Shown piece by piece: positions 33,375 through 39,247 of a stretch of 39,247 bases of DNA. Below the pieces are notes generated by a model, which saw only the letters and a list, made by a program, of their open reading frames with translations, did not search any database and was not told the origin of the DNA. The stretch's first letter is position 1; every line of letters starts with the position of its first letter. The DNA is from an uncultured Oscillospiraceae bacterium. Its GTDB lineage: Bacteria > Bacillota > Clostridia > Oscillospirales > Oscillospiraceae. The translations under genes were made by a program, and so were the position numbers. Location of the stretch: contig CALWXQ010000012.1 in NCBI GenBank assembly GCA_944385545.1, positions 1-39,247 on the forward strand, written 5' to 3'.

Positions 33375-34141
33375 TGCGATTCCCGAACAAGAAAACGCCA
33401 TTCCCCAAAGACCGTTTCCCGGAGCCGGAGCTGCCCGCCCGGGAAGAAAAAATACGGCAGACCGTCGCCGCGTCCATGGGCAGCTTCCTGGAAGCCCAAA
33501 CCCGGGAGTCTATGAATATCTGGGAGTTCCTCTACTGCCAGAGCCGGTATGTGAAAAAGCACTGGTGGCTTTTACAGGCGCTGCTTCTGCTATGGCTGTA
33601 CAGCCACATTCGAACATATCAGGATCCGGTGCTGATCCGGAGAACCCTGGGCGTCGGCGCTCCCCTGTTCATCATTCTGGTGATCCCGGAGCTGTGGAAA
33701 AACCAGAGCAGCAACGCTATGGACATTGAATCTGCCACCATGTACACCCTTCAGCAGCTCTATTCCGCCCGGTTGACTCTGTTTGCCGGAGTGGATCTGC
33801 TTCTGCTGAGCGTCTTTTGCCTGGGCACCACAGTCTCTCTGTCCTTGACATTCTGGGATCTTCTGACCCAATTTGTGCTGCCGGTGAATATGACCTGCTG
33901 CATCTGCCTGACCTGCCTGTATACGCCCCGGGGCGTCCAACAGGCCTTTTCCCTGGCCCTGTGCCTGGCCTTCGCCGGAATCTGGAGGGAGATCGTCAGC
34001 AATGAAACGCTCTATCAGGCCATCACCATCCCCACCTGGGCAGGATTGCTGGTACTGTCCCTGGGGTATATGGTCTACTGCGTACTGCGCGGCCAGAAAC
34101 GCTGGAGAAGGGATCTGGAAAAAAAGCTTCTCTGGGACTGA
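33374..34141 (+). CDS. Six-helix membrane protein coupled to the sigma factor; candidate anti-sigma factor
   Basis: A 255-residue protein. A charged cytosolic N-terminal segment (1-60; AREEKIRQTVAASMGSFLEAQT) precedes about six hydrophobic helices (64-79, 91-107, 134-155, 165-183, 191-205, 219-238) and a basic tail. It shows no zinc-finger anti-sigma motif (HxxxCxxC). Coupling to the sigma gene by TAATG suggests that the N-terminal segment holds the sigma factor at the membrane. Function is otherwise unrecognised. Its gene ends the operon; no strong terminator is seen in the 76 nt to the convergent GNAT gene. Confidence 0.82.
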   Translation: MRFPNKKTPFPKDRFPEPELPAREEKIRQTVAASMGSFLEAQTRESMNIWEFLYCQSRYVKKHWWLLQALLLLWLYSHIRTYQDPVLIRRTLGVGAPLFIILVIPELWKNQSSNAMDIESATMYTLQQLYSARLTLFAGVDLLLLSVFCLGTTVSLSLTFWDLLTQFVLPVNMTCCICLTCLYTPRGVQQAFSLALCLAFAGIWREIVSNETLYQAITIPTWAGLLVLSLGYMVYCVLRGQKRWRRDLEKKLLWD

Positions 34142-34217
34142 TCCCCCGTGGATAGCGGTCTGAAGGAAACGCAGTTCAGATAGCTCTTGTGTTTCCTCCG
34201 GTTTTCAAGGACAAAGT

Positions 34218-34745
34218 CTACTTCGCGCTTTCCCATTGTTCTCTTGTGATCATTACTTCCAGCCAACCATTGTCACGGCTGATTTCCCGGAAGCCAGCGG
34301 ACATGTGGGCTTGCCATGCGGATACTTCGTTTCTGGCAAGTTCAAAATCATTATGAATCCTGCTGACTTTACAAACCCGAAAAGCATGGTCAAGCATTTG
34401 TTTCAGAGCTGGGACGGCGTATCCGTTGCCCCGGTAGGGAGCATAGATCACGATGCCCATATCCCACCAGTCTTTATCAGGCGTATAATGGAAATTCACA
34501 TCTCCAATCCATACGCCATCGGATTTCCGGCGAATGTAGGCATAAAACCGCTCCGGTTCGTTGCCGATCCAATGGCTGTACCAATCACCCCATGCAGATT
34601 CCGGAAAATCAATGCAGCCGGTATCCTTGTGGTAGCCATGGTAGTTTACATCCCAATTGGCATTATAAGACATGGTATCCGGATCAGACATCATTTTTTG
34701 TGAGAACCACAGTTCTTCTTGCTTTGGTATGTATAGGTCAAGCAT
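34218..34745 (-). CDS. GNAT-family N-acetyltransferase
   Basis: A 175-residue protein of the RimJ/RimL-like acetyltransferase group. The acetyl-CoA pyrophosphate loop YRGNGYAVPAL is at about 110-120. It is preceded by strands WIGDVNFHYTP and WWDMGIVIYA and followed by RIHNDFELARNEVSAWQAHMSAGF, the usual C-terminal block where ...N..S....GF contacts the cofactor. Substrate cannot be told: ribosomal proteins, aminoglycosides or small metabolites are all acetylated by relatives. Transcribed singly, converging with the sigma operon, 91 nt upstream of the exporter stop. Confidence 0.88.
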   Translation of the reverse strand: MLDLYIPKQEELWFSQKMMSDPDTMSYNANWDVNYHGYHKDTGCIDFPESAWGDWYSHWIGNEPERFYAYIRRKSDGVWIGDVNFHYTPDKDWWDMGIVIYAPYRGNGYAVPALKQMLDHAFRVCKVSRIHNDFELARNEVSAWQAHMSAGFREISRDNGWLEVMITREQWESAK

Positions 34746-34836
34746 GTTTCATCCTCTTTCCGTTTGGTGGGAGCCGTTGCCGACCCCCACCGCTGTTTGC
34801 AGGGCGGAATCCCCGCTGATCCATACCATCCCTTCC

Positions 34837-36585
34837 CTACCCGGCGTACTGGCTGGTATAGAGCTTATGGTAAAAGCCCTGCCGGTTCAGCAGCTCCTGA
34901 TGGGTGCCCTGCTCCACAATGGCGCCATGATCCAGCACCAGGATCCAGTCCGCGTTCACAATGGTGCTCAGCCGGTGGGCGATGATGAAGCAGGTTCGCC
35001 CCTCCATGAGCTTGTCCATGGCCTCTTGGATCAGCAGCTCCGTGCGGGTGTCCACATTGGAGGTGGCCTCGTCCAGGATCAGCAGGGGCTTGTCCGCCAG
35101 CAGCGCCTGGGCAATGGTCAACAGCTGCCTCTGGCCGCCGGACAGATTGGTGGTATCCTCCCCAATCACGGTGTCGTACCCCTGGGGCATGGTGCGGATG
35201 AAATGGTCGCAATAGGCCTTTTTGCAGGCTTCCTCAATTTCCTCCTGGGTGGCCTCCGGCTTGCCGTAGGCCACATTTTCCCGGATGGTTCCCCGGAACA
35301 GCCATGTATCCTGTAGCACCATGGCAAACCGGCTGCGAACGTCCTCCCTGCGGAAGTCCGCGGTGTCCTGGCCGTCCAGGGTGATGGTACCGTTACGGAC
35401 GTCATAAAACCGCATCAGCAGATTGACAATGGTGGTCTTTCCGGCACCCGTGGGGCCTACGATGGCCACCTTCCGGCCCGGGGCCACTTGCATGTTCAGA
35501 TCCCGGATCAGCGGCTGCCGGGGGTCATAGGAAAAGTCCACATTGGTAAACACCACCTCGCCCCGGGTCTGCGTCGCCAGATCTTCCCGGGGCCGTTTTT
35601 CTTCCTCCATATCCAAGATGGCAAAGACCCGGCGGGCAGCGGATCGCACCCGGCTCATCTGGCTGAAGCTGTAGCTCAGCTGCTCCAGAGGGGACGCCAG
35701 CTGCCTGGAAAAGAGAACAACGGTCACAACCGTTCCCACGCTGACGCCCCGCTCCACTGCCAGATACCCGCCGATCAGGTTGATGAGAATATAGGCGATG
35801 GAATTGGACAGTCGGATCACCGGCTGCACGGCGGAATCCAGGAATCGGGCCTTGATGGTCGCGTCCGTCAGCTGTTCGTTCACCGCGGCATGCTTTTCGG
35901 CGGCATAGGCCTCCAGGTTGTATGCCTTGGTGGTGGCATAGTTGGTAAAGGTTTCTTCCACCAGCTCCGTCAGCTGCCCGGCAGTCCGGAACATGCTGTC
36001 GTAATTCTTCTCGCTGCGCCCGGCGATCCTGGTGCTGAGCCAGATGGAAGCCGGGGTCAGCAGCACCAGCGCGCCGGCCAGCCGCCAGTCCTCCCGGAAC
36101 ATGGCTACGCAGATCAGCAGAATCTGAAAAAAGCCCTTCACCAGCACGTTGAAAATGTTGTGAACGGAGTTTCCCAGGATGGAAACATCCTCAGTCATCC
36201 GCTGGATGACGTCCCCTACCGGGGTCTGATCCACGTAGGACACCGGTAACAATTTGATTTTCTCGGAAATCTTTATGCGGATGCCGCTGGTAAAAAACCG
36301 GGTCACCGTCCGGTTCATCACCAGCATGTTCCAGTAGCTGAACAAGCTGTTGGCCCCATATACCACCGCCAGCAGGATCAGTCCCGAGGTAACGGTTTGG
36401 CGGATGCTTCCAACGCATCCCCCCTCCCAGAAATCATACAGAGTCTGGGTCAGATCTCCCAGCAGCTCCGGCGCCAGGACGGCGGCAATCACCGCCAGCA
36501 CGTCCAGCACCCCGCCCAGCAGCAGCCAGGGCGCAATGGGCTTGGCCAGGGCCGCCAGGCGAAGCATAACATTATCTCGCTTCAT
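34837..36585 (-). CDS. Heterodimeric ABC exporter, canonical-site subunit (BmrD/LmrD-like)
   Basis: A 582-residue half-transporter with six membrane helices (about 15-310) fused to an ATPase domain. Walker A GPTGAGKTT (about 376-384), signature LSGGQRQ (about 480), and Walker B LLILDEATSNVD with the catalytic Glu (about 500-512) are intact. Its partner lacks this Glu, so the pair has one full and one degenerate ATP site. ATG 36585 has GGAGG 5 nt upstream and is preferred to the GTG at 36591. It overlaps the partner gene by 14 nt. Likely substrates are hydrophobic drugs or lipids, as for BmrCD and LmrCD; this is family knowledge. Confidence 0.93.
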   Translation of the reverse strand: MKRDNVMLRLAALAKPIAPWLLLGGVLDVLAVIAAVLAPELLGDLTQTLYDFWEGGCVGSIRQTVTSGLILLAVVYGANSLFSYWNMLVMNRTVTRFFTSGIRIKISEKIKLLPVSYVDQTPVGDVIQRMTEDVSILGNSVHNIFNVLVKGFFQILLICVAMFREDWRLAGALVLLTPASIWLSTRIAGRSEKNYDSMFRTAGQLTELVEETFTNYATTKAYNLEAYAAEKHAAVNEQLTDATIKARFLDSAVQPVIRLSNSIAYILINLIGGYLAVERGVSVGTVVTVVLFSRQLASPLEQLSYSFSQMSRVRSAARRVFAILDMEEEKRPREDLATQTRGEVVFTNVDFSYDPRQPLIRDLNMQVAPGRKVAIVGPTGAGKTTIVNLLMRFYDVRNGTITLDGQDTADFRREDVRSRFAMVLQDTWLFRGTIRENVAYGKPEATQEEIEEACKKAYCDHFIRTMPQGYDTVIGEDTTNLSGGQRQLLTIAQALLADKPLLILDEATSNVDTRTELLIQEAMDKLMEGRTCFIIAHRLSTIVNADWILVLDHGAIVEQGTHQELLNRQGFYHKLYTSQYAG

Positions 36586-38299
36586 AGTCACCTCCGGTTT
36601 GGGAAGCGTAGATCTCCTGATACACCTGGCACCGGCCCAGAAGATCCTGGTGGGTTCCGTGATCCACCAGCCGGCCCTGATCCATCACGTAAATACAGTC
36701 ACAGTGCATGGCGGTGGTCACCCGTTGGGTGACGATGATCCGGGTCTTGCCGGCAATGGCTCCAGCCAGGGCCTTTCTCAGGTTGGCCTCGGTCAGAAAA
36801 TCCAGCGCGGAAAAGCTGTCGTCAAAAATATAGATGGACGCGGGTTTCACCACTGCCCGGGCAATGCTGATCCGCTGCCGCTGTCCGCCGGACAGGTTCT
36901 TGCCGGACTGCTTGAGCACATGGTGGATGCCATCCTGGCAGGCGCTGACGAATTCCTTCGCCTGGGCAATTTCCAGCGCCTTCCAAATGGCCTCGTCCCC
37001 GGCAGAAAGATCTCCCATGGCCACGTTTTCCCGGATGGTGCCGGAAAATACGGCGGCATTTTGCAGGGCGCAGCGCATATTCTGCCGCATGGTGCGGCGG
37101 GAAAGCTTTGTGGTGGGGATCCCGTCCAGCAGAACCTCGCCTTCCGTAGGCATCCGGAAGCCCAGAAGCATGCTGACCAGGGTGCTTTTTCCGGCGCCGG
37201 TACCGCCGATAATGGCGGCCGTCCGACCCTTGGGAATGTGCAGATGAATGTCCCGGAGAGCAGGCTCCGCCGCCCCGGCGTACCGGAAGGTCACATGATC
37301 GAACCGGATATCCCCTTCCAGGGTCAGCTCCCGGTGCTCCACCGGATCCGCCATGCCCTCGGCCTCCAGAACCTGGCCGATGCGGCCGGCGGCTACGTTG
37401 GCGTGGGGAAACAGGATGATGGAAAACGCGCCCATGATCACGCCGCCGCTCACCAGGGATATGTACTGGACAACGGCAAAAATATCGCCGCCGGTAAGGC
37501 CGCTGCCGGCTTCCAGCCGCCAGGCGCCTGCGTAGACGATCAGCACCGCCGCCAGATTCAGCAGGAAGGTAGCCAGGGGCGTGATCATGCCCATGGTCAC
37601 ATTGGCCTGGATGATGTGCTTTGCCATCGTGTGGACGGCCTCGGCTACCCGCCGGTGCTCCTTTTCCTCCGCGTCAAAGGCCCGGATCACCCGTATCCCC
37701 CGTAGCCGTTCCCGCATAATATCGCTCTGCTTGTCCACGTACGCGTCGGACTGCTTCCAAAGAGCGTCGATATTCCGGCTGGCGTAGAGCACCACCGCCA
37801 GGATCACCGGCACGAAGGCCAGCATCAGCAGGGAGAGCAGCACATCCTTGCGCATAGCCAGGAGCACCCCGCCGAAAAACAGCACCGGAATGGTGACCAC
37901 CGTTCCGGACAACTCGGAAGCCACCCAGGAAACGGTCTGCACATCATGGGTGGCACGGGTCACCAGGGCAGCGGTGCCCAGGTTGCCGAATTCCTCGAAG
38001 CTCATGTCGTTGACCTTGCGGAAAATCGCGCCGCGCAAATCCCGGCAGAAGCAAGCCACCACCTTGTTGGAATTCCACACCCCGATCAACAGGGTAACCA
38101 AACCGGTCAAGCAGATAAGGAGCATCAGCGCGCAGCATCTGACGATGTAGCCAAAGTCCTCACCGTAAATCCCGTTGTTCAGAATCTGGCTCATAATGGT
38201 AGGCAGCAGCAGATCGCAGACCGTGGATCCGGCCACAGCCGCCATGGCTATGAGAATTCCCTTCCGATAGGGCTTCAAATAGGGAATCATTTGTTTCAT
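36572..38299 (-). CDS. Heterodimeric ABC exporter, degenerate-site subunit (BmrC/LmrC-like)
   Basis: A 575-residue half-transporter beginning MKQMIPYLKPYRKGILI. Six helices (about 15-305) precede an ATPase domain with Walker A GGTGAGKST (about 365), signature LSGGQRQR (about 468) and Walker B YIFDDSFSALD (about 489). There Asp replaces the catalytic Glu, as in the degenerate subunit of BmrCD-type exporters. The ATG at 38299 is chosen because GAGAGG lies 6-7 nt before it. The frame stays open upstream to 38455, but that stretch holds the leader ORF and terminator and has no transporter homology. Transcription must pass the attenuator at 38332-38363. Confidence 0.93.
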   Translation of the reverse strand: MKQMIPYLKPYRKGILIAMAAVAGSTVCDLLLPTIMSQILNNGIYGEDFGYIVRCCALMLLICLTGLVTLLIGVWNSNKVVACFCRDLRGAIFRKVNDMSFEEFGNLGTAALVTRATHDVQTVSWVASELSGTVVTIPVLFFGGVLLAMRKDVLLSLLMLAFVPVILAVVLYASRNIDALWKQSDAYVDKQSDIMRERLRGIRVIRAFDAEEKEHRRVAEAVHTMAKHIIQANVTMGMITPLATFLLNLAAVLIVYAGAWRLEAGSGLTGGDIFAVVQYISLVSGGVIMGAFSIILFPHANVAAGRIGQVLEAEGMADPVEHRELTLEGDIRFDHVTFRYAGAAEPALRDIHLHIPKGRTAAIIGGTGAGKSTLVSMLLGFRMPTEGEVLLDGIPTTKLSRRTMRQNMRCALQNAAVFSGTIRENVAMGDLSAGDEAIWKALEIAQAKEFVSACQDGIHHVLKQSGKNLSGGQRQRISIARAVVKPASIYIFDDSFSALDFLTEANLRKALAGAIAGKTRIIVTQRVTTAMHCDCIYVMDQGRLVDHGTHQDLLGRCQVYQEIYASQTGGDYEAR

Positions 38300-38331
38300 A
38301 CAATACCTCTCAATACCTCTCTCAAAAACGC

Positions 38332-38363
38332 AAAAAAGCGGCCCAAGCCGAAGCTCGCGCCGC
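38332..38363 (-). terminator. Attenuator terminator in the exporter leader
   Basis: GCGGC...GAGC-TTCG-GCTT...GCCGC followed by TTTTTT (38337-38332). It stands between the leader ORF stop (38394) and the ribosome site of the first exporter gene, so full-length mRNA requires read-through. Confidence 0.88.
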
Positions 38364-38393
38364 ACACAAACGCCTGTCCGATAGCATGACCCT

Positions 38394-38471
38394 CTATCGC
38401 ACAGTACCTCCAGGAGCAAGTCTTCCGCTGTAAACATTCTCAAGAACGAACCCAAAGATGTTCATCAACAT
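38394..38471 (-). CDS. 25-codon leader peptide ORF upstream of the exporter genes
   Basis: Starts at ATG 38471 with AAAGGAGG 8 nt upstream, one of the strongest ribosome sites in the window. It encodes MLMNIFGFVLENVYSGR and eight more residues, ending at TAG (38394). It lies about 30 nt after the predicted transcription start. A hairpin CGATAG/CTATCG begins at the stop codon, and the intrinsic terminator follows. This is the position and role of bmrB before bmrCD in B. subtilis: slowed or stalled ribosomes on the leader would change folding and let transcription continue. The peptide itself is probably not functional. Confidence 0.8.
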   Translation of the reverse strand: MLMNIFGFVLENVYSGRLAPGGTVR

Positions 38472-38506
38472 ATGCACTTCCTCCTTTCCGGTTGATTTTC
38501 GTGGAC

Positions 38507-38535
38507 ATGATACCATGATTTCCAGCAATTGTCAA
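38507..38535 (-). promoter_or_regulatory. Promoter of the exporter operon
   Basis: -35 TTGACA (38535-38530), 17-nt spacer, -10 TATCAT (38512-38507). Start expected near 38500, giving about 200 nt of leader. Confidence 0.88.
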
Positions 38536-38655
38536 TCACTTTCTGTAAGGAAGCCATAGGAAATCTTTGCCCCTGTCCGGAACGCGCCCTCTCTGCGTGA
38601 AATTCAAGGGCGTCTACCAACGAATATCCCTGAATGAACCATTGCAACGTATTCA

Positions 38656-38714
38656 CAGATCGTCGATAAACCCCAGTTTCGCTTAACGCAAAACTGGGGT
38701 TTATCGACGGTCTG
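38656..38714. repeat. Long hairpin downstream of the last lipoprotein gene
   Basis: Arms of about 24 bases with a single imperfect pair (CAGAT-CGTCGATAAACCCC... / ...GGGGTTTATCGACG-GTCTG) and a short loop. On the minus strand it begins with CAGACCGTCGA, the same sequence as the left end of the 203-bp element at 12110. No T tract follows on either strand. Confidence 0.7.
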
Positions 38715-38760
38715 ACGCAGCCGGCATGAGTACGTCATGCCGGCTGCGTATTATTTTTTA
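38715..38760 (+). terminator. Strong hairpin with T tract between the lipoprotein and exporter regions
   Basis: Fifteen-base arms (ACGCAGCCGGCATGA and its complement) around GTACG, then ATTATTTTTTA on the plus strand. No plus-strand gene precedes it closely. It also sits directly after the lipoprotein stop on the minus strand, so it may work as a bidirectional barrier. Confidence 0.7.
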
Positions 38761-39165
38761 GCCGTATCCGCTGTTTTTGATCTCCCACCGTCCGCCGGTG
38801 CTGCGTCCCAGATACCACTTCCAGCGGGTATAGGTGTCACCGGGTGCCCAGGCGCCGTCCGCGGCGTCTTCCCCCACTGTAAAGGAGGTGTACAGGATGA
38901 TGACCTCATCCAGACCCCAATCCCGCGCGCATTCGCCGAAGTCCTCCGGGGTATTGTCCCCCGGGTAGCTGATCTGGGTCAGGGTACAGCCCCGGTATTC
39001 CTTGCGAAAGAAGGCGATCACCACATCCATGGCGTCGGTAATGTCCTCGTCGCTGTACAGCGCTGAGTCCTCCCAGGCTGCCACTTCCACCTGATCCACA
39101 TTTCCGCCGCCGCAGGCCGTCAGCAACAGCGCCAGAAGACACACCAGGAAAAACCGTATTTTCAC
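38758..39165 (-). CDS. Small lipoprotein of unknown function
   Basis: A 135-residue protein with signal peptide KIRFFLVCLLALLL and lipobox LTAC (Cys at about 18), then GGG. The soluble part carries VEVAAWEDSALYSDEDITDAMDVVIAFFRKEYRGC (about 25-60) and a Trp-rich C-terminus (YTRWKWYLGRSTGGRWEI). The GTG at 39165 is preferred because GGAGGG lies 8 nt upstream and the signal peptide starts there; an extension to 39207 adds 14 charged residues before it. No relationship to the lipoproteins at 27.4-29.1 kb is evident. Family not firmly recognised. Confidence 0.82.
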   Translation of the reverse strand: MKIRFFLVCLLALLLTACGGGNVDQVEVAAWEDSALYSDEDITDAMDVVIAFFRKEYRGCTLTQISYPGDNTPEDFGECARDWGLDEVIILYTSFTVGEDAADGAWAPGDTYTRWKWYLGRSTGGRWEIKNSGYG

Positions 39166-39197
39166 CGGTGTTTCCCTCCCCTCCTTGGATTTCCTAC

Positions 39198-39226
39198 AGC
39201 ATACCACCGTTCCGGCCTCGGCGCAA
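39198..39226 (-). promoter_or_regulatory. Probable promoter of the small lipoprotein gene
   Basis: -35 TTGCGC (39226-39221), 17-nt spacer, -10 TATGCT (39203-39198), near the window edge. Confidence 0.5.
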
Positions 39227-39247
39227 CCCGGCGGCGGGAAACTTAAG

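Follow-up and report, generated by a model that had tools for sequence, protein, structure and literature searches.

The leader upstream of a two-gene ABC exporter in an uncultured Oscillospiraceae bacterium is real and conserved, and most likely an attenuator that responds to ribosome occupancy. It lies in the window, by which we mean the whole 39,247-nucleotide stretch of DNA analyzed here. We think it probable that transcription attenuation at this leader is governed by the ribosome, the signal being a long occupancy of the start site of a short leader ORF. One strand near the end of this ORF pairs either with the region from the Shine-Dalgarno sequence (SD) to the start codon of the same ORF, forming an anti-antiterminator (AAT), or with the 5′ arm and loop of an intrinsic terminator, forming an antiterminator (AT). 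The anatomy of the leader, its conservation in relatives, the two pairings and their covariation can be read directly from the sequences. The pairing of this switch strand with the leader's own SD region had been missed in the original prediction.

The window leader and its operon

The original prediction had described a promoter, a 25-codon ORF, a stop codon within a small CGATAG/CTATCG hairpin and a terminator with six T before the exporter genes, and all of these were located (Table 1). The promoter has 11 of 12 matches and is the best of 4 sites in a scan of 34000-39247, a scan that by itself proves little because 2.9 sites are expected in shuffled sequences. The ORF end is 30 nt from the terminator stem, and the T6 run is 32 nt from the exporter ATG (38299). 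The terminator was found by RNAfold and is absent from the list of a generic terminator scan, probably because of its internal G.G mismatch. Two adjoining strong inverted repeats at 38656-38749, CGTCGATAAACCCCAGTTT...AAACTGGGGTTTATCGACG and ACGCAGCCGGCATGA...TCATGCCGGCTGCGT, occupy part of the interval that separates the leader promoter from the 3′ end of a lipoprotein-like small gene (38758-39207, minus strand).

Table 1. Features of the leader and of the genes that follow it in the window
Feature	Position	Strand	Sequence or remark	Basis
Promoter	38507..38535	-	TTGACA 38535-38530, 17 nt, TATCAT 38512-38507, TG before -10	promoter scan
Shine-Dalgarno of leader ORF	38480..38487	-	AAAGGAGG, strong	
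AAT, 5′ strand	38476..38484	-	GGAGGAAGU, overlaps SD	
Leader ORF	38394..38471	-	25 codons, MLMNIFGFVLENVYSGRLAPGGTVR; ATG 38471-38469, stop TAG 38396-38394	
Switch strand	38413..38429	-	AGCGGAAGACUUGCUCC, codons SGRLAP; ACUUGCUCC pairs with SD region, AGCGGAAGACUUGC with terminator	
Stop-codon hairpin	38380..38399	-	CGATAG 38399-38394 / CTATCG 38385-38380	
AT, 3′ partner	38346..38358	-	GCGAGCUUCGGCU; terminator 5′ arm, loop and first 3′-arm bases	
Intrinsic terminator	38332..38363	-	UUCG loop and T6; stem GCGGC-G-CGAGC-UUCG-GCUUG-G-GCCGC 38363-38338, T6 38337-38332	
ABC exporter subunit 1	36572..38299	-	575 aa, ABC_membrane and ABC_tran, degenerate Walker B IFDDS	Pfam and sequence
ABC exporter subunit 2	34837..36591	-	584 aa, ABC_membrane and ABC_tran, canonical Walker B LDEAT	Pfam and sequence
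GNAT acetyltransferase	34218-34745	-	91 nt past exporter genes	Pfam

The two exporter genes overlap, and the operon may include the GNAT gene as its third. A degenerate Walker B motif in one subunit and a canonical one in the other mark heterodimeric ABC exporters, and the two subunits probably form such a heterodimer. The original prediction had called the leader a ribosome-dependent attenuator before a BmrCD-like exporter. The anatomy and the two subunits agree with this description, but the layout is unlike that of the bmrB leader, and neither subunit has BmrC, BmrD, YheI or YheH among its 60 solved chains listed. Both P-glycoproteins and other bacterial exporters built of two subunits are among the solved chains nearest by sequence in the listed matches; the term "BmrCD-like" fits the kind of pump and no more.

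In 136 genomes of the genus, a protein search gave 17 orthologs of exporter subunit 1 at E<=1e-150. The leader lies directly upstream in 14 of them, those of 56-100% identity (the window's included), and is absent before the three of 50-51% identity (G195, G208, G534). The regions upstream of two of these leaderless orthologs (L013 and L181, in G208 and G534) contain promoter-like boxes, short G+C-rich inverted repeats and T runs, and, judged by eye, they are perhaps another kind of attenuator.

A family of related leaders

A plain DNA search with the window leader matched 4 of 200 genomes of the family at E<=0.001: its own genome, one with a true relative (G049) and two with chance matches (L004 and L005, so judged on reading the loci). 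Covariance models were built from 6 leaders (R1) and then from 22 (R2). Within the genus, 50 of the 136 genomes match R2 at E<=0.001, and 43 matches in 40 genomes reach at least 46 bits. Two further leaders at or above 46 bits were found in other genera of the family (G140 and G062, in a search of 400 genomes), which brings the total to 45. The order (245 genomes) and the class (291 genomes) gave no convincing additional leader. Besides G140 and G062, every model match outside the genus in the family, order and class searches is below 44 bits, and the best of them (G919, 43.9 bits) was rejected on reading. Among 30 genomes there are up to three model matches per genome (G219 and G488, the second and third of G488 being weak). 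A pattern scan of genome contigs gave 24 loci; R2 confirms 7 of these, labelled Oscillospiraceae (5), Clostridia (1) and Bacillota (1), and fails to confirm 17. In the literature searched, whose coverage leaves out most subscription journals, no description of this Oscillospiraceae leader family was found.

The 57 R2 matches correspond to 55 sites, two of them being opposite-strand second matches of L126 and L035. Five sites were dropped as non-leaders (L079, L105, L080, L061, L077), two were left out with no ORF called (L044, L138) and three were set aside (L131, whose ORF start had been miscalled; L135; and L040, with a CTG start and no convincing gene near). The remaining 45 leaders were used for the pairing survey, the footprint model and the promoter count, and 32 cluster representatives for the swap tests, codon shuffles and hairpin count. 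The alignment A4 also has 45 rows, from a slightly different set that includes L131 and omits L137. For the swap test and the footprint model, the position of the switch strand in L036 and L129 was set manually. The contig of L034 begins early, and the same place was re-read as L139, a true-looking leader.

Several weak model matches were rejected on inspection. L039 and L061 are tRNA-like; L077 and L164 appear to be the end of a ribosomal-protein gene with its terminator; L079, L080 and L105 have no fitting ORF; L043 and L053 were rejected on reading as leaders of this family. L041 (G211:C61) and L042 (G213:C79) were rejected too: they carry similar Cys-rich 29-codon ORFs, MYSFSCNNACDSDC...GFGC and MFYFNCGTNNGSNCC...GFGC, with a strong SD, a common upstream CTCGAGAGACAAAT and a terminator. 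Each could encode a small protein, a peptide precursor or a leader. L040 (1501-1628, G261:C2) is leader-like at 69.6 bits, has CTG for a start codon and no convincing gene near on the same strand, and is perhaps a decayed copy.

The expectation that the leaders of relatives would share the ORF and covarying stems is borne out by sequence comparison. A promoter with TTGAC and a -10 box of at least 4 of 6 matches is present in all 45 leaders examined, with 17-nt spacing in 44 and TG in 39. The leaders have an SD, a start codon and an open frame, and the terminator lies between the leader ORF and the gene. Stop-codon hairpins of at least 4 pairs occur in 30 of the 32 cluster representatives (mean z -1.33), the 7 exporter-1 representatives showing them most clearly (z -2.2 to -3.6). 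The conserved parts are mainly the SD and start, the switch strand and the terminator, and the remainder is variable; for example, the first part of the leader peptide is highly divergent (MLMNVLVGVYSGRLAPGRTVR, MLNYLNAAGKKYRIGRRLAPYASTRR, VRIRKTFQRFALVITLQLCPELASCLAAR).

Alternative pairings and the ribosome

By base pairing, the AAT and the AT are mutually exclusive partners of one leader-ORF strand. The AAT partners differ from leader to leader: GGAGGAAGU/ACUUGCUCC in the window, GGAGCAAG/CUUGCUCC in L033, GGAGUGAAGC/GCUUCGCUCC in L038 and CGGG/CCCG in L052. In a swap test, own pairings were compared with pairings swapped among the 32 clusters (75% identity, 10000 permutations). The AAT is stronger with the leader's own partner (-15.6 vs -12.3 kcal/mol, z -8.5) and so is the AT (-17.6 vs -15.6 kcal/mol, z -4.9), each with 0 of 10000 permutations, counts that overstate independence because the leaders share descent. 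Four control pairings of segments of the same relatedness gave z from -0.5 to +2.0. With one leader per exporter type (n=17, a set that still holds several GNAT, S66 and phosphorylase leaders) z is -5.1 for the AAT and -3.7 for the AT, and inside each exporter type a smaller effect is seen (z -2.1 to -2.8). The swap result stands with the whole ORF open to pairing, so that no strand has to be chosen: z is then -7.7 (AAT) and -3.5 (AT).

The alignment A4 was fitted to the AAT and terminator helices and not to the AT, and its counts should be read accordingly: 92.8% of cells are paired in the AAT and terminator together, with 14 of 19 pairs changed on both sides, vs 33-51% paired when the partner is slid by 1-3 columns. 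The terminator helix taken separately has 98.6% of cells paired and 8 of 10 pairs changed on both sides. For the AT, 83.2% of cells are paired vs 80.6% when shuffled and 30-58% when slid, and cells changed on both sides number 28 vs 17. No excess over shuffles is seen in the number of AT pairs with both sides changed (5 vs 4.4) or in pair types (17 vs 17.6). By these counts covariation is weaker for the AT than for the AAT. The AAT is the best-supported helix besides the terminator. The antiterminator of the original prediction, AGCGGAAG with CTTCGGCT, is present in the window and extends to AGC.GAAG(A)CUUGC with GCGAG-CUUC-G-GCU. Alone this pairing could be due to chance, and it is the swap tests in relatives that support it, the pair counts being weaker.

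We infer that the leader ORF is translated and that the position of the ribosome decides between the two pairings. With no ribosome on the SD, the AAT would form, the terminator would fold and the exporter would stay off. A freely translating ribosome would soon cover the switch strand, so that no AT could form, and the exporter would again be off. A ribosome kept at the start codon, or within the few codons after it, would mask the SD and leave the switch strand free; the AT could then form before the 3′ arm of the terminator emerges, and the exporter would be turned on by antitermination.

This scheme was modelled in the 45 leaders by masking 15 bases on each side of the P-site codon in a transcript cut just after the terminator loop. 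Without a ribosome the mean pairing is 0.61 for the AAT and 0.18 for the AT. A ribosome on the start codon raises the mean AT to 0.75; the AT is then above 0.4 in 45 of 45 leaders, and it increases by over 0.1 in 39 of 45. The mean AT is 0.66 with the footprint on codon 4, 0.00 on the switch strand and 0.09 on the stop codon. In the window leader the AT is 0.00 without a ribosome, 0.79 with one on the start and 0.00 with one on the switch strand. Among real leaders, 81% of 32 have AAT above 0.5 without a ribosome and AT above 0.5 with one at the start site, vs 16% of 320 codon-shuffled ORFs. Ten of the 45 leaders favour the AT (above 0.4) without any ribosome, which counts against the model. 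It also counts against the model that in the full transcript at equilibrium the terminator wins in every modelled state (state means 0.93-0.99), and a start-site ribosome brings it below 0.5 in only 4 of 45 leaders (L021, L028, L099, L136). The switch must therefore be kinetic, with the AT forming first.

Inhibitors that trap initiating or early ribosomes would be inducers, and loss of initiation would give no induction. The original prediction held that the bacterium senses translation inhibitors through this leader, and we infer the same; by analogy with known leaders, lincosamides, pleuromutilins and tetracyclines would induce. Streptogramin A and phenicols are also drugs that trap initiating or early ribosomes.

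Theoretically, the conserved element could be the peptide, with a frequent x-A-P near its C-terminus stalling the ribosome and drugs or cell state altering the stall. Arrest motifs containing AP are known, and Ala-Pro occurs in 33 of the 45 leader peptides. Moreover, in 43 of 44 leaders the stop follows the GCUCC-type motif by 4-7 codons, and in 42 of 44 the motif, 13-23 codons from the start, is read in one frame, so that the leader ORF seems constrained. We nevertheless regard such a nascent-peptide arrest as unlikely. After Ala comes Pro in some leaders and Ser (type II, for example L024), Arg (L052) or Leu (L102) in others, yet the SD pairing persists; L052 has changes in both pairing strands. 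Elsewhere the peptide is highly variable, and L129 and L134 read the RNA motif in a different frame. Because the post-Ala residue varies with SD pairing kept and two leaders are out of frame, RNA pairing is the better account, and conservation seems to act on the RNA pairing to a greater extent than on the peptide. A stall at x-A-P would also cover the switch strand and favour termination. The usual frame of L129 would end at a stop codon within its stop hairpin, and an indel or an assembly error is therefore possible there.

In a second alternative no signal is sensed: the AAT serves chiefly to keep the leader peptide untranslated, and the terminator is a constitutive setting of strength. It would agree with the AAT being the most strongly covarying pairing and hiding the SD, and with a terminator stable in all modelled states at equilibrium. 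But the switch strand matches the 5′ arm and loop of its own terminator better than those of other leaders, which a mere silencer would not need, and a strong terminator behind a near-consensus promoter in all 45 leaders would waste that promoter. We consider this reading quite improbable.

Less probable still is an amino-acid starvation attenuator, in which slow decoding of regulatory codons raises read-through. The general layout of ORF, alternative hairpins and terminator is alike, but the window's 25 codons contain no run of one kind of codon, and the typed downstream genes are exporters and single enzymes, not biosynthetic operons. A likely true amino-acid attenuator in the same search output, L057, looks different and was rejected as a family leader. 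At 1501-1647 (G471:C14) it has a terminator and a leader ORF, MKNFVFASYYFYFTASSGKGNL, in which Phe and Tyr codons abound, as in an aromatic attenuator, and the gene after it resembles DAHP synthase.

Finally, a small-molecule riboswitch or protein-binding leader is hardly to be expected: the leader is structured (whole fold -70.5 kcal/mol by RNAfold, z -3.37, 0 of 200 shuffles equally stable), but conservation is confined mainly to the SD and start, switch strand and terminator, and no Rfam match is credible. In Rfam 15 the window at 38100-39247 gives 6 matches with E up to 10, none anywhere near the gathering score, and the 15 leader loci scanned (the window's, L020, included) gave only 2 tRNAs at E up to 0.1.

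Genes behind the leaders and comparison with known attenuators

The leader stands before 14 of the 17 exporter-1 orthologs; the element is not specific to exporters and also precedes unrelated genes. By Pfam typing, done on one to two members per group, the 45 sites of at least 46 bits have exporter type 1 downstream in 14 cases and, in 15, an exporter of another type that shares no more than 30% identity with it. An ABC ATPase follows L052. GNATs follow L104, L131, L139 and L134 (in the last, beginning 325 nt on), and S66 LD-carboxypeptidases follow L102, L129 and L130. Single cases are GrpB (L032), a metallophosphoesterase (L033), a histidine phosphatase (L075), a methyltransferase (L103), a nucleoside phosphorylase (L132) and NUDIX-HIT (L076). 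L051 is followed by an unassigned gene fragment where its contig ends and L040 by nothing convincing. Weaker sites, below 46 bits, precede a phosphorylase (L137), a GNAT (L135), a methyltransferase (L138), a gene with a weak AAA match (L044) and a gene without family identification (L136). NCBIfam resistance models gave no match at cut-off among the matches listed for 13 proteins scanned, so that none of the downstream genes counts as a known gene for resistance to translation inhibitors. This speaks against the occupancy model, as does the absence of the leader before three exporter-1 orthologs.

We tentatively suggest, as a possibility short of a firm conclusion, that the promoter, leader and terminator form a reusable cassette of about 200 nt, a sensor of start-site occupancy placed before at least nine unrelated families in one Oscillospiraceae genus. 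Those families are ABC exporters (two types), GNATs, S66 peptidases, methyltransferase, GrpB, NUDIX-HIT, metallophosphoesterase, histidine phosphatase and nucleoside phosphorylase. Together they might form a translation-arrest regulon wired only in cis with no transcription factor involved, unlike the situation in actinobacteria, where WhiB7 is a single hub. If the occupancy mechanism is true, the sequence alone would be enough to mark uncharacterised genes of uncultured gut bacteria as induced when translation is blocked. The use of the leader's own ribosome-binding site in the AAT would give a simple rule, the gene being on while a ribosome occupies the leader start, which predicts drugs trapping early ribosomes as inducers and drugs preventing initiation as non-inducers. 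If the cassette reading is true as well, the list of targets is a route to new resistance genes in gut bacteria, and R2 can be used to search for further leaders.

For the bmrB leader of B. subtilis bmrBCD, induction by ribosome-targeting drugs and a need for leader translation were shown, as well as a predicted terminator, antiterminator and anti-antiterminator, the role of the last being left open (PMC4191407). Like bmrB, the window leader ORF precedes a two-gene ABC exporter, probably heterodimeric, and has terminator, AT and AAT. In contrast, the bmrB terminator is inside the coding region (the complete bmrB fusion is 162 nt; PMC4191407) and the window terminator is outside the ORF; in the window, the AAT is the leader's own SD region.

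For vmlR of B. subtilis, the trigger proposed is ribosome stalling at the start of the uORF under lincomycin-type drugs (PMC9226507). The shared parts are an AAT, an AT, a terminator, a uORF and a hairpin between AAT and terminator, which in vmlR is the putative pause hairpin SL-2; by this analogy the stop-codon hairpin of the window leader may be a polymerase pause hairpin. The vmlR uORF has three codons (MIN), whereas the leader ORFs of this family have about 19-29. Its SD is in a single-stranded region before the AAT, whereas here the SD is one AAT strand; vmlR also has an SD-sequestering hairpin, SL-4 (PMC9226507).

The rli80-hflXr leader of Listeria monocytogenes likewise has AT and terminator in the leader; a start-codon mutation abolishes induction there and an AAT mutation gives constitutive expression (PMC6310831). 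Its peptide has the macrolide-arrest motif RLR, absent from the window peptide, and that paper concerns one gene, whereas the related leaders here precede unrelated genes. In toiL-topAI of Escherichia coli, tetracycline or retapamulin holds the ribosome at the uORF start, and a start-codon ribosome frees downstream pairing (PMC12121999), as it does here in the model. That system controls translation and Rho-dependent termination (PMC12121999), whereas the window leader has an intrinsic terminator.

The bmrB, vmlR and hflXr leaders share their logic with the window leader and differ from it in layout. In the window leader the SD is within the AAT, unlike in vmlR, and the terminator is outside the ORF, unlike in bmrB; related leaders also stand before unrelated genes.
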